DNA of 64,000 nucleotides. It comes from an uncultured SAR86 cluster bacterium (GTDB lineage Bacteria; Pseudomonadota; Gammaproteobacteria; Magnimaribacterales; D2472). Positions 41,529 through 46,838 of this stretch are shown here, piece after piece. Positions within the stretch are counted from its first letter, which is position 1, and each line of letters opens with the position of its first letter. A program made the translations under genes and the position numbers. The notes under the pieces are model-generated. The model searched no databases and was not told the DNA's origin. It saw only the letters and a list, made by a program, of their open reading frames with translations. The DNA is taken from assembly GCA_902557645.1 (NCBI GenBank), contig CACEAP010000005.1, positions 74,181-138,180 of the forward strand, written 5' to 3'.

Positions 41529-44378
41529 TTATTGAGAGACTAATGAATTTGTCCCTAGACCACTTCCATAAACTACGGCATTCAACCATAAACGGTTAGT
41601 GGCAATAGATGATCCTCTAAAATTTGGCTCTCCAGAAAAAAGTATAACCTGGCCTTTACCAATTTTTTCTCTTGTTAAATATGCTGAATTAGCTATTCGT
41701 TGAGAAGCTTCAGGCCAAACTAAACCACTCATTCTTACATTTAAATCAAAACCTTCTGGTATTTGTGACCAATTTATTACTCTAGTTTCTTCAACTTTAT
41801 CATTTTGAACTAGCTCACCAATTCTAATTGGTGCTTCAGCATTACCACCAGTCATAAGAATAGGATAATTAGCATATAAAATAGGTACTAATTCATTTGT
41901 ACCAAAAGTTAACCAATGCTTTTGATCTGATCTTGCAGCAACCATTGACCCTGATGGCATTAATAAAGCTTGCCATTTATCTCTCATTTCAAGCTGCTCT
42001 TTTGTAAATACTTTTTCTACTGATTCCCAAGGATATTTAATATCAAAATTTACTTTATTTGAATTAACATCACTTTTAACAATATCATCATTCATTGAAT
42101 ATATTTCTCTCATTAAATCAATATTATAAGAATTAGTATTATCAAATGTTTGTGAGAGTAGATTAGTATTACCAAAGTCAGTTGCTGCAGCTATTAATCT
42201 AGTTGCTCTATTATTTGCAATTAAAGTTCCTCCTTGTTTTACCCAATCAATTAATATCTCTTTTGTATAGTTACTAAGATCCGGATTGCCACTTGGAAGT
42301 ATTATGGTGTTGTATCTTCTTAGATCACCATAAGCAACTAAAGATGAATTAAGCTGACTATGTCTAATACCTAAATGATGATCAAGAGACCACCAACTAA
42401 CTCCAACATCATAAGAGTTAAAACCTTCATGACTTAATATTGCTATTTGAGGTTTATTTAATAACCTAAAGTGTCTACCTCCCCAATCTGGTAATTCTTC
42501 AGGACCAAAACCTGATTCTATTGAAACAATAGATATTTCAAGATCAGTAGCTGCTTTTTTAATTACTTCATCTAAATTTTTATATTCAGGATTATCCATT
42601 GCAATTACAACGACACTACCTCTTGCTAAATTATGATCAGAAAGAATAGATTTTTTATCTACGATTCTAACTTGTACATCTTGTTCCATGAGGCGAGCAG
42701 CAAAAGCTACAGACCTATCATCATTACCATCGACTGCCCACATCAAAGCATCTTCATTAATTTCATATGTAACTGAAGAGGGTTTCCATGGCTTAAGATT
42801 ATTAGAGATATTGTCGGGAACTGTTATTGCTGGCAGTCCATACATCATTGTAAAATTGAATGCAGTTGTATCATACATAATAGAAGAACCATTTCTTAGT
42901 CTCTTTTGCTTTTCTTCAATCAGAACTAACTCATTAATATCAGCATCGAATTCAAGAAATGCTGAAATTAAAGGTGCTTCAGGCTGTTTATTCGGTATTA
43001 TCATACTCCCTAAAGGTATAATAAATTCTTCTTCTATATTGCCATTTTGTTTAAGAACATTATTAGCCTTAATAGGTTTAATATTTTCATAGATTTCAAC
43101 ATCTTGAGCTAAAAGTTTATCTGCAAGAGTGTTTAATCGACCATTATTATCTGTTGGTAAAATAACAAATGATTTATTAGCATATTTGCTATTATTAGAA
43201 ACATTATATTTACGACCATCCCAATAATCTTTATACATAGATTTTGAGTTCTTTAATAATGTTTTAAGATTTGTAATCGTACTAACAAACTGATGATGAA
43301 CAGATTCTTTATATGATTGAATAGTGCCTTCAGGTCTTTTTACACCATCCTCTGCCATTCTAGATTGTTCATATAGTATTCCTAAACTACCCCTAAATTG
43401 AACATAAAATGAATACCCAGGATATAAATCCTCATGCCACTCACCTGTATAGAAACGCCAATTATTCTCATCAAAAGCACTTGCTTGATCTTGAGCAAAA
43501 ACATTACCCCATTTAATAAGGTTTTTATCAATATTCTTATTTATGGGCTCTCTTGGAGGTCCTGTCATGAATGTATCCTGGGAGCCCATTTCATGACCAT
43601 CTACAAGAATCTGAGGACGCCATTGATTTATTAATGCAACACGACCTTGGGTCTCTGGTTGAGTTAGATAAAGCCAGTCTCTATTTAAATCGAAATAATA
43701 ATGATTAGTTCTTCCATAAGGCCAATCGCCTGTATGAAGTAAGGATTGATCGTCATAATTTGGTGCTGTTCCTCTATATTGTTCAAGATTTTTAGCAAAT
43801 CGAGCTCTTCCATCTGGATTCATTAAAGGATCAATTATAATAATCATGTTATCTAACATATTTAATATATCTTTATCTTTAGTAGCTATTAAATGATAGA
43901 CAAGGCCTAATGCTGCATCAGCTCCAGATGTCTCATTACCATGTATTGAATAAGCCATCCATGCTATTGCAGGAAGTGCACTTATAATTTTTGTAGCTTC
44001 TCTATCTGAAGTTTTCCTTGCATCAGATAATGCAATTATTTTATTTTTTATATTATCTAGATTATTTAAATTATCAGAAGAAGAAATGAAAACAGCATGA
44101 AGAGGGCGACCTTCATGAGTTTTAGCATATTCTACTACTTTCAATTTATTTGATTGTTTAGACCATTTATTTAAAGCATTGGTTATTTGCTCTGGTGAAG
44201 CAACACGGTCACCATAATTAAAATCTAAAAATTTACTTGGGTTATCTATACTGTCATCATAATTACCACTTAAAATATTTTGTGGGTATAGGTCTTTAGA
44301 TAATGAAGTTGGCTCTAATAATGAATTTGATTGTGTGTTGATTGATATAAGTAAAAAAAGGGCAATTGTTGTTTTCAT
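41529..44378 (-). CDS. Large secreted M14-family zinc carboxypeptidase
   Basis: A 949-residue exported protein (signal peptide MKTTIALFLLISINTQSNS). The M14 domain (about 60-360) has AWMAYSIHGNETSGADA (HxxE zinc ligands) and DPLMNPDGRARFA, GHEMGSQDTFM region with further ligands and Glu in ILYEQSRMAEDG. The remaining 550 residues include a class I glutamine-amidotransferase-like region (about 600-740) common to this large M14 group in marine Bacteroidetes and gamma-proteobacteria. It should remove C-terminal residues from peptides in the periplasm or on the cell surface. It is transcribed alone, toward a strong terminator. Confidence 0.87.
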   Translation of the reverse strand: MKTTIALFLLISINTQSNSLLEPTSLSKDLYPQNILSGNYDDSIDNPSKFLDFNYGDRVASPEQITNALNKWSKQSNKLKVVEYAKTHEGRPLHAVFISSSDNLNNLDNIKNKIIALSDARKTSDREATKIISALPAIAWMAYSIHGNETSGADAALGLVYHLIATKDKDILNMLDNMIIIIDPLMNPDGRARFAKNLEQYRGTAPNYDDQSLLHTGDWPYGRTNHYYFDLNRDWLYLTQPETQGRVALINQWRPQILVDGHEMGSQDTFMTGPPREPINKNIDKNLIKWGNVFAQDQASAFDENNWRFYTGEWHEDLYPGYSFYVQFRGSLGILYEQSRMAEDGVKRPEGTIQSYKESVHHQFVSTITNLKTLLKNSKSMYKDYWDGRKYNVSNNSKYANKSFVILPTDNNGRLNTLADKLLAQDVEIYENIKPIKANNVLKQNGNIEEEFIIPLGSMIIPNKQPEAPLISAFLEFDADINELVLIEEKQKRLRNGSSIMYDTTAFNFTMMYGLPAITVPDNISNNLKPWKPSSVTYEINEDALMWAVDGNDDRSVAFAARLMEQDVQVRIVDKKSILSDHNLARGSVVVIAMDNPEYKNLDEVIKKAATDLEISIVSIESGFGPEELPDWGGRHFRLLNKPQIAILSHEGFNSYDVGVSWWSLDHHLGIRHSQLNSSLVAYGDLRRYNTIILPSGNPDLSNYTKEILIDWVKQGGTLIANNRATRLIAAATDFGNTNLLSQTFDNTNSYNIDLMREIYSMNDDIVKSDVNSNKVNFDIKYPWESVEKVFTKEQLEMRDKWQALLMPSGSMVAARSDQKHWLTFGTNELVPILYANYPILMTGGNAEAPIRIGELVQNDKVEETRVINWSQIPEGFDLNVRMSGLVWPEASQRIANSAYLTREKIGKGQVILFSGEPNFRGSSIATNRLWLNAVVYGSGLGTNSLVSQ

Positions 44379-44476: not shown

Positions 44477-44489
44477 ATAAATACATATA

Positions 44490-44517
44490 ACTTCGCATAA
44501 TATATACAATAACAAAT
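44490..44517 (+). repeat. Degenerate dif-like site (XerC arm and centre intact)
   Basis: The XerC-side arm ACTTCGCATAA (44490-44500) differs from that of the main dif by one base; the central TATATA (44501-44506) is identical; the XerD-side arm CAATAACAAAT (44507-44517) matches only 6 of 11. The exact shared core is 15 bp (44492-44506 and 45214-45228). It is in the same orientation as the full dif at 45212, 722 bp away. In known dif-integrated elements the second site is typically damaged in this arm. Confidence 0.6.
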
Positions 44518-44627
44518 TCATTAAACATATTAGAAAATTAGACTTATCTGATAAATTAGATACATCAGGAAGATTTAACACAACATATTCCTACATTACA
44601 AAAAATATCTTACTATTATTTAGTAAA

Positions 44628-45194
44628 ATGAAATTTATATATAAACAATTAAATTATTGGAAAAGTTCTAGTTTTAGAAAAGAACTAGAATTATATAAAA
44701 CATTAATTAAAGAGCTTAATGAATTTAATCATTCATATTTTACTAGGGCAAATGCTCGTAAAGAGCTTAAAAGAATACTAAAAATTTTTTATCCTGAATA
44801 TTATAAAAGTGGTACTCAAGATGATTGGAATGATTTATTTTATGAATTAACTCCAGAAGGTCACAAGGAAAGCATCGAGCAAGCTTATGAAGAGATGATG
44901 GACCAAATAAAAGAATGCAACGAAGATATAGAGTTTTTAAATGACTCAGGAAGAGTTAATGAGATTAATGAAGTCAAGGAACAAATTAAATTTATTAAAC
45001 TTAAATATAAATTTGCAAAAAGAGATGCCTCAGAAGATTTTGCTAATATATTAGTTGGTGAGTTTGCTAAACATCAATCTAATCCTACATATCAGAAAAA
45101 ATTTATTAATAAATACTACAAGAATGAAATTGGAATGAGATTTGATTTAGACAGTAAAATTAAGCTATTTATAGAGAAGGGTTACCTCAAATGA
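44628..45194 (+). CDS. Orphan charged protein between the two dif sites
   Basis: 188 residues, strongly charged (Lys/Glu/Asn-rich), mostly helical, with a likely coiled coil at about 75-130 (EQAYEEMMDQIKECNEDIE and following). No signal, no membrane helix, no recognised domain. The frame stays open for about 45 codons before the ATG, with no other start codon, so an N-terminal truncation or a non-standard start is possible; no Shine-Dalgarno is seen. It is the only gene in the dif-bounded segment and is transcribed toward dif. Confidence 0.6.
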   Translation: MKFIYKQLNYWKSSSFRKELELYKTLIKELNEFNHSYFTRANARKELKRILKIFYPEYYKSGTQDDWNDLFYELTPEGHKESIEQAYEEMMDQIKECNEDIEFLNDSGRVNEINEVKEQIKFIKLKYKFAKRDASEDFANILVGEFAKHQSNPTYQKKFINKYYKNEIGMRFDLDSKIKLFIEKGYLK

Positions 45195-45211
45195 TAGTAA
45201 AAATATACATT

Positions 45212-45239
45212 AGTTCGCATAATATATATTATGTTAAAT
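45212..45239 (+). other. dif: Chromosomal dif site (XerC/XerD recombination, terminus marker)
   Basis: The XerD-side arm TTATGTTAAAT (45229-45239) is identical to that of E. coli dif; the XerC-side arm AGTTCGCATAA (45212-45222) differs at 2 of 11 positions; the 6-bp centre TATATA (45223-45228) differs at 1. In total 25 of 28 bases match. dif is where XerCD, activated by FtsK, resolves chromosome dimers, and it lies opposite the origin. The site directly abuts the stop codon of phoD. Confidence 0.9.
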
Positions 45240-46838
45240 TTATACTATTACTTTACTGTTATTAAATAATTTAAAGTTTTTACCTATAAAGCTTTTGTAT
45301 TGGGTTTTTTTGACAGAAGTTACATAAACAAATGATGTATCTACAAACTCATTATTTATATCGATTAATGTATAACCTTTATTTTTGCCATCCATCCATT
45401 GTAAATTTTTATTTTCATTTATAAATGAATTCTCTAACTTTTTAATATTTTTATTAAATATAGGCACATCACTAAAATTGGGTGAATTAATTGAGGGCGT
45501 TCCTAGTTCAACTCCAACAAATTTTTGCTTTTTAGAATATAAGTTAGAAACCCATGAGCTATGCGTATCACCAGCAATCACAATACTAGATTTAGATTTA
45601 GATATTATTTTATAAAATCTTTCTCTTTCATTTGGATAACCATCCCATTGATCAGTATTGTATGGAATATTTGTTCCTGCTAACGAGATATACCTATGTA
45701 AATATGAAGGAAGTGTTTTTACGTCAAGCGTTTTAAGAAAACCTGGTACATATGTTGGTGCCGATAATAATTGCTGTCCAAATATTGACCATTGAAATGA
45801 ACTTGAAACTTGATTATCTAACCAATCCAATTGTTTTTTTCCAAGAAGGTTTCTATTAGGATTATTTAGAGCATTGAGATATGCTTTTTTATTAAAACTT
45901 CCATTTTTAAAATATTTTTCTATATCAACTTGTTTATTTCTTGCATATATTCTTGTATCAAGCATAAGTAATTGAAATAAGTTGCCAACTTTAAAACTTC
46001 TCCAAATTTTTGATTTAGATTGCGTTTCTCTTATTGGCATCCATTCATAATATGCTTTTATCGCATTAACTTTTCTAGCTTTATAAAGACCTTCATCTTT
46101 ATCGTGATTTTCGGCACCATTTTTCCAAGCATTATTAGTAAATTCATGATCGTCCCATATACATATCATGGGTTTAAGTGAATGAAGTTTTTTTAGTTGC
46201 TTGTCCGTTTTATATTGAGCGTGTCTTAATCTATAGTCTTTTAATGAGACTATTTCATGCTTTGGGTTAACCACCCTACCCAATCTATTGGAATCCTCTG
46301 TTGCATATCCATTTTCATCGTACTCATAAATATAATCACCTAAATGTAGAACTAAATCTATTGATTTATCATCGGCAATAGACTCATATGCATTAAAAAA
46401 ACCAGCTGGATAATTTGAGCAACTACAGAATGCAATTTTAAAATTAGATGGATTATTTGCAGGTAAAGTTAATGTCTGACCTACTGGTGAATAAATTTGC
46501 CCTACATTAAATCTATAAAATAAAGGCAATCCGTTATATTTAGCATCAACATATACATCTTTTTTAATTGTATGATCTTTGCTTTTTAAGGCAAGAACAG
46601 TGCCTTTATTTATAATAATTTTAAAAGATTTATCTATAGCAACTTCCCAATTAACCCTTATTGAAGAATTAGTATTAACAGTTAATTTAGACCAAATTAT
46701 TACGTTAGTATTAGTTGGATCCCCACTTGCAATGCCATGATTAAAGCTAACTTGATTTTTTGGTGTGTCAGAATTTATTCTAAGACTTAAAATAGAAATA
46801 AAGCTTCCTAATACTTTGATAAATGATCTTCTATGCAT
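45240..46838 (-). CDS. phoD: PhoD-type alkaline phosphatase/phosphodiesterase
   Basis: A 532-residue exported enzyme. It begins MHRRSFIKVLG, a twin-arginine (Tat) signal as usual for PhoD. The domain shows FNHGIASGDPTNTNVIIWSKL, LHLGDYIYEYDENGYA, CIWDDHEFTNNAWKNGAE and IAGDTHSSWVSNL, the Fe/Ca-site residues of PhoD. It releases phosphate from organic esters in the periplasm, a means of phosphorus scavenging in phosphate-poor seawater. The stop codon directly abuts dif. No pho-box was recognised upstream. Confidence 0.9.
   Translation of the reverse strand: MHRRSFIKVLGSFISILSLRINSDTPKNQVSFNHGIASGDPTNTNVIIWSKLTVNTNSSIRVNWEVAIDKSFKIIINKGTVLALKSKDHTIKKDVYVDAKYNGLPLFYRFNVGQIYSPVGQTLTLPANNPSNFKIAFCSCSNYPAGFFNAYESIADDKSIDLVLHLGDYIYEYDENGYATEDSNRLGRVVNPKHEIVSLKDYRLRHAQYKTDKQLKKLHSLKPMICIWDDHEFTNNAWKNGAENHDKDEGLYKARKVNAIKAYYEWMPIRETQSKSKIWRSFKVGNLFQLLMLDTRIYARNKQVDIEKYFKNGSFNKKAYLNALNNPNRNLLGKKQLDWLDNQVSSSFQWSIFGQQLLSAPTYVPGFLKTLDVKTLPSYLHRYISLAGTNIPYNTDQWDGYPNERERFYKIISKSKSSIVIAGDTHSSWVSNLYSKKQKFVGVELGTPSINSPNFSDVPIFNKNIKKLENSFINENKNLQWMDGKNKGYTLIDINNEFVDTSFVYVTSVKKTQYKSFIGKNFKLFNNSKVIV

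Follow-up and report, generated by a model that had tools for sequence, protein, structure and literature searches.

A unit of 722 bp with a single gene lies exactly at the chromosomal dif of a SAR86 cluster bacterium, with an intact 28-bp dif on one side and a half-site, an XerC arm with its centre, on the other, both of which are features of IMEX elements. The genome that holds the window (the whole 64,000-nucleotide stretch of DNA analysed here; G000, contig C5) is 1.25 Mb long and AT-rich. We consider it likely that host XerC and XerD integrated a small one-gene circle, whose attachment site combined a good XerC arm with a degenerate XerD arm, at this dif. Different single genes placed alike at dif in this genome and in two relatives, G075 and G125, suggest that the cell's own XerC/XerD machinery is able to take in one gene per event. 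The locus is made up as follows.

41529-44378, reverse strand: left flank, M14-like peptidase gene (named by eye; family F2), found at or near dif in many relatives.
44490-44517, forward strand: left half-site, with XerC arm (44490-44500), centre (44501-44506) and degenerate XerD arm (44507-44517).
44507-45228, forward strand: inserted unit (cassette) of 722 bp, measured between equivalent points of both sites.
44628-45194, forward strand: orphan gene of 188 aa, the sole ORF between the sites.
45212-45239, forward strand: intact chromosomal dif, with XerC arm (45212-45222), centre (45223-45228) and XerD arm (45229-45239).
45240-46838, reverse strand: right flank, PhoD-like phosphatase gene (named by eye; family F28), whose stop codon abuts dif.

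The right dif reads AGTTCGCATAA TATATA TTATGTTAAAT and is canonical, and the left half-site reads ACTTCGCATAA TATATA CAATAACAAAT. Both sites contain the 15-mer TTCGCATAATATATA without a mismatch, at 44492-44506 and 45214-45228, in direct orientation and 722 bp apart. Direct reading confirmed every figure that the sequence-only reading had given for this repeat, as well as its description of the left copy as degenerate in the XerD arm, with 6 of 11 matches to dif. The XerC arm of the left half-site is changed at its second base alone and the centre is identical. With up to three mismatches, the core TTCGCATAATATATATTATGTTAAAT was found as one copy each in 82 of the 107 genomes of the family; because it is single-copy and identical or nearly so in these genomes, the right copy is the true dif. 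The left half-site is read as the original chromosomal XerC half joined to incoming DNA. The inserted unit has a GC content of 24.7% (over 44518-45213), and its gene ends 17 bp ahead of the XerC arm of the intact dif. On the other side, the PhoD-like gene also adjoins dif in several genera, at an offset of 20-27 bp.

We scored half-sites in their context using a matrix of 29 columns (14 bp upstream plus the XerC arm and centre) trained on 80 dif loci, the training set being restricted to true dif sites with secondary copies left out. The scan took in both strands out to 7 kb from dif at about 80 sites of the family, and 1,961,043 positions were scored. The best secondary half-site among them was the left one of the window (36.4 bits, against a median of 34.7 bits for true dif), followed by sites in G075 at -727 (27.5 bits) and G125 at -1446 (23.8 bits). 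The next match scored 18.1 bits, on the opposite strand inside an F2 gene, and the one after it 7.3 bits. The 14 bp upstream of the window's half-site resemble a dif flank, and the upstream columns alone were dif-like in the window (10.2 bits), G075 (8.2 bits) and G125 (12.5 bits). All three half-sites lie on the XerC side, in dif orientation and at gene boundaries. No case beyond these three emerged from a mismatch scan of 159 dif loci, to which three further families had been added, and the scan gave no XerC half-sites in families f2, f3 and f4. Equally, mirror-image remnants with the XerD arm on the right were not above controls in family f1, nor were such XerD-arm remnants in dif orientation in the other families. 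Half-site-like matches in G070 and G083 were dismissed, as the two share similar downstream sequence, which is expected of homologous coding sequence.

The two parallel cases carry different genes in the same arrangement. In G075 the unit is 727 bp long and its one gene encodes a 207-aa lipoprotein; the order is a haloalkane-dehalogenase-like gene, the half-site TTCGCTTAATATATA|TATTGATAAGC, the lipoprotein gene, dif and infA. The dehalogenase-like gene ends 11 bp ahead of the half-site, and it ends 11 bp ahead of the single dif in G018, G082, G087, G088, G069 and G074; this distance is 11-12 bp in most relatives that have the gene at dif. When the flanks of G075 were joined and aligned to G082, one dif was restored and both flanks were about 81-83% identical. 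The relatives of G075 with the same flanking genes thus carry an empty site, a single dif at the exact position. The G125 unit is 1,446 bp long with one gene, a 438-aa zincin-like lipoprotein of family F75, and its half-site TTCACATAATAAATA, which has two changes, lies between an F14 gene and the F75 gene. G126, whose right flank is the same as that of G125, has the order F14-dif-F6 with no insert, and the flanks of G125 match it.

The sequence-only reading had predicted that the unit would be present in some relatives and absent in others, with a single dif joining the flanks. The main part of this was borne out: the gene was missing from every other genome of the order searched (weak partial matches only), the left repeat occurred in no relatives other than G075 and G125, and the relatives of G075 have a single dif. 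For the window itself, no empty site with both of its flanks was found among the relatives. The proposal of a minimal IMEX is nevertheless supported by the anatomy of the locus, by presence and absence, and by two further independent cases with empty sites.

The layout of the three units is alike. Each holds one gene set tightly, with 44-110 bp before it and 10-59 bp after it, and in all three the likeness to dif stops at the border between the centre and the XerD arm, which is where XerD cleaves. The XerD arms of the three half-sites are mutually unlike and have no common motif. The three genes are likewise unrelated to one another, and two are lipoproteins for which no phage relative was found.

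These observations can be accommodated by the following scheme. The incoming DNA would be a small circle with one gene and a dif-like site that has a good XerC arm and centre and a poor XerD arm. Host XerC and XerD would recombine this circle with the chromosomal dif. The left product would then combine the XerC half of the chromosome with the XerD half of the circle (now 44490-44517), and on the right a complete dif would be rebuilt from the XerC half of the circle and the XerD half of the chromosome, so that chromosome dimer resolution would be kept. Excision of the unit would probably be disfavoured. The circle itself, catalysis by XerCD and the stability of the product are what we infer; no extrachromosomal circle or vector came to light. 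Upstream of the rebuilt dif sites the sequence resembles the usual flank of dif, so another dif locus was probably the source of the incoming DNA. The unit has no integrase of its own, its one gene being its whole content, and would use the host enzymes. The genome encodes only two tyrosine recombinases, which are XerC- and XerD-like; the XerD-like protein scored above the curated cut-off and the XerC-like one slightly below it (329.7 versus 335.15 bits).

The 188-aa gene is coding-like by codon usage and has a GC content of 25.7%, compared with 30.5% for the window. As the earlier reading had it, a single gene lies between the sites. It belongs to no Pfam or NCBIfam family; searches of Pfam, PHROGs and NCBIfam returned noise only. 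No credible relative of the protein was found in the 202 other genomes of the order, where matches were weak and partial, nor in GTDB contigs, viral contigs, phages or plasmids. Before its ATG the reading frame runs on without a stop for another 49 codons, across the left half-site (44481-44627). A longer reading is possible, with a non-standard start or as a 5'-truncated gene, and the codon statistics of the leader are ambiguous. The model of the extended 225-aa frame was mostly helical and poor (mean pLDDT 49).

The genes of the other two units have relatives. The 207-aa lipoprotein had a single relative among 203 genomes; this protein of G042, from another SAR86 family, shares 67% identity with it, and by coordinates its gene lies 603 kb from the dif of that genome. 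The identity of this pair is above that of ClpA (51.7%) but not above that of the isocitrate-dehydrogenase-like F4 (69%). F75 had six strong matches in 203 genomes, from three families; all six lie no more than 4.4 kb from dif, some to its left and some to its right. The protein carries an HEYFHH motif and is rare (loci L157, L132, L141, L145, L054 and L115).

It is unlikely that the unit is the remnant of a larger Xer-integrated element, such as a filamentous phage, satellite or island, that lost all but one cargo gene. The known elements of this kind are bigger, IMG/VR contains inovirus-like contigs with an identical dif sequence, and the 188-aa gene is a low-GC orphan, all of which would fit such an origin. 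However, phage gene fragments were seen in none of the three units, three convergent deletions would be needed to give the tight one-gene layout each time, and in another family the G075 gene is found as an ordinary gene of the chromosome. The search for a viral vector with the same dif gave ten contigs, inovirus-like or tailed-phage-like; these dif-bearing contigs are higher in GC, and none carried the unit genes or encoded proteins like those of the loci. Three of the IMG/VR contigs (L225, L228 and L231) look by eye like tailed phages, with terminase- and portal-like genes, and have a perfect dif between genes; judging from this sequence context, a tailed phage may use Xer integration.

The surroundings of dif change quickly. 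Among 79 loci there are 25 families of left neighbours, and among 82 loci 16 families of right neighbours. The left neighbour is common to 11% of within-genus pairs, the lowest value of all boundaries tested, and the right neighbour to 24%, compared with 92-100% for housekeeping boundaries. Pairs with an insertion or loss between dif and the adjoining gene outnumbered pairs with one at the next boundary outward (83 versus 19 on the left and 174 versus 30 on the right). This ratio is indicative only, because the pairs lack independence and the conserved infA-clpA boundary is counted on the right. A footprint was present at just 3 of about 159 dif loci; elsewhere at dif genes mostly turned over without one, and on the XerD side always. 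Since turnover on the XerD side is high without any XerD half-site remnant, much of what changes at dif must either arise in some other way or have lost its footprints. For the three footprinted cases, Xer insertion is the best explanation.

Ordinary recombination in this hypervariable terminus could also bring in genes. A linear donor with the gene, dif and right flank would recombine by homology on the right and join illegitimately inside the recipient dif on the left, leaving a half-site. The lability of the terminus on both sides of dif is in keeping with this, as is the presence by dif of F75 and F40 in several SAR86 families at identities well over those of ClpA (75% between f1 and f4 against 48-51% for F75, and 87% against 58.6% for F40, with G058 as the proxy of the same genus in the latter ClpA comparison). 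Some of the cross-family genes are on the XerD side, where there are no footprints. Illegitimate joining, however, does not predict a left joint exactly at the border of the centre and XerD arm in three of three units, and no such joints were found on the right. Recombination with linear DNA at such a labile terminus accounts for a good part of the turnover, and for the cases on the XerD side and between families, but leaves the exact border in all three units unexplained; as the origin of the units we judge it improbable. That the left copy matches dif by chance, or is an accessory site for XerC binding that arose independently and is unconnected with insertion, is very improbable even in such AT-rich DNA and for a site itself rich in A+T, given a score far over background, a dif-like upstream flank, a location at a gene boundary and empty-site controls in two relatives (G075 and G125), and a chance origin is in practice excluded.

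Integration of one-gene circles by XerCD may have a wider role. We put forward, tentatively and as a possibility we would not yet favour, that dif in SAR86 is an integron-like platform for gene exchange, on which ordinary single genes move among genera and families in the form of small circles with an XerC half-site only and are added on the XerC side by host XerCD, the half-sites then decaying so that most additions are footprint-free.

Other features of the dif region were recorded. F40 (L083, -505 to -91; L160, -718 to -304) is 87% identical between f1 and f2 genomes, where ClpA is about 59% identical; it adjoins dif in both families, in opposite orientation, and by sequence comparison is likely a recent cross-family transfer. 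F8, of about 160 aa and without a Pfam family, occurs in 46 genomes of families f1 and f4, and every one of the 45 copies for which dif was mapped is no more than 2.1 kb away from it; it was dropped as a sign of transfer, as its between-family divergence is like that of ClpA and looks vertical. In one f4 genus, about 15 of 20 genomes carry an inverted XerD-arm-like ATATTATGTTAAATAA 115-118 bp to the right of dif, at a nearly constant spacing while the surroundings vary (L139, L145, L148, L149 and about ten other f4 loci); it is possibly an accessory XerD site. In G106 (L102, around -410) the end of an F9 gene is followed by TTATTTTAAAT, which matches 10 of 11 positions of an XerD arm and lies beside a single inserted gene; this may be chance in AT-rich DNA.

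SAR86-type genomes are streamlined, and it is natural to ask how they acquire accessory genes. A single-gene footprint at the one site that every chromosome must keep offers a testable route by which genes could be gained with no phage, plasmid, transposase or integron involved. If true, this would widen the range of Xer-exploiting elements to units of a single gene, and dif would be worth examining for gene flow in other small genomes. We found no description of single-gene units at the primary chromosomal dif in the literature searched, which was mostly outside subscription journals. The idea of a new minimal form has to be qualified: single-gene dif modules, although mostly with inverted sites, are already known on Acinetobacter plasmids.

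In TLCphi and the gonococcal island an intact dif lies on one side, and on the other the XerC arm and centre are kept while the XerD arm is divergent (PMC5357621); excision makes poor use of the divergent site (PMC5357621, PMC9765430). The degenerate XerD arm of the left site agrees with both (PMC5357621), as the comparison with the gonococcal genetic island (GGI) in the sequence-only reading had it. The IMEX elements covered by one review are phages or islands, the GGI measuring 57 kb and EludIMEX-1 29.1 kb (PMC5357621). The SAR86 units share with them the position at chromosomal dif, a dif rebuilt on one side, a divergent XerD arm on the other and the lack of an integrase of their own, but differ in having 0.7-1.4 kb, one gene and no genes for replication, packaging or transfer. 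Integron cassettes are single-gene units added singly at a fixed site, with the 3' end of the gene beside the recombination site. The SAR86 unit resembles them in layout alone: there is no integron integrase (only the XerC- and XerD-like enzymes in the genome), no attC-type site and no array with intact sites. The plasmid dif (pdif) modules, or xrs cassettes, of Acinetobacter consist of one or a few ordinary genes bounded by Xer sites and are shuffled without a recombinase of their own (PMC13141974, PMC11705084). They mostly have two complete sites, inverted, on plasmids, whereas the SAR86 unit has a left site without the XerD arm, direct repeats and the primary chromosomal dif as its target. 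Chromosomal modules bounded by Xer sites occur in Acinetobacter sp. M10, where they use extra dif-like sites whose role in dimer resolution is unlikely according to the authors (PMC12907356); in SAR86, by contrast, it is the resolution site itself. The SAR86 unit is IMEX-like in the geometry of its sites and like an Acinetobacter module in its size and content.
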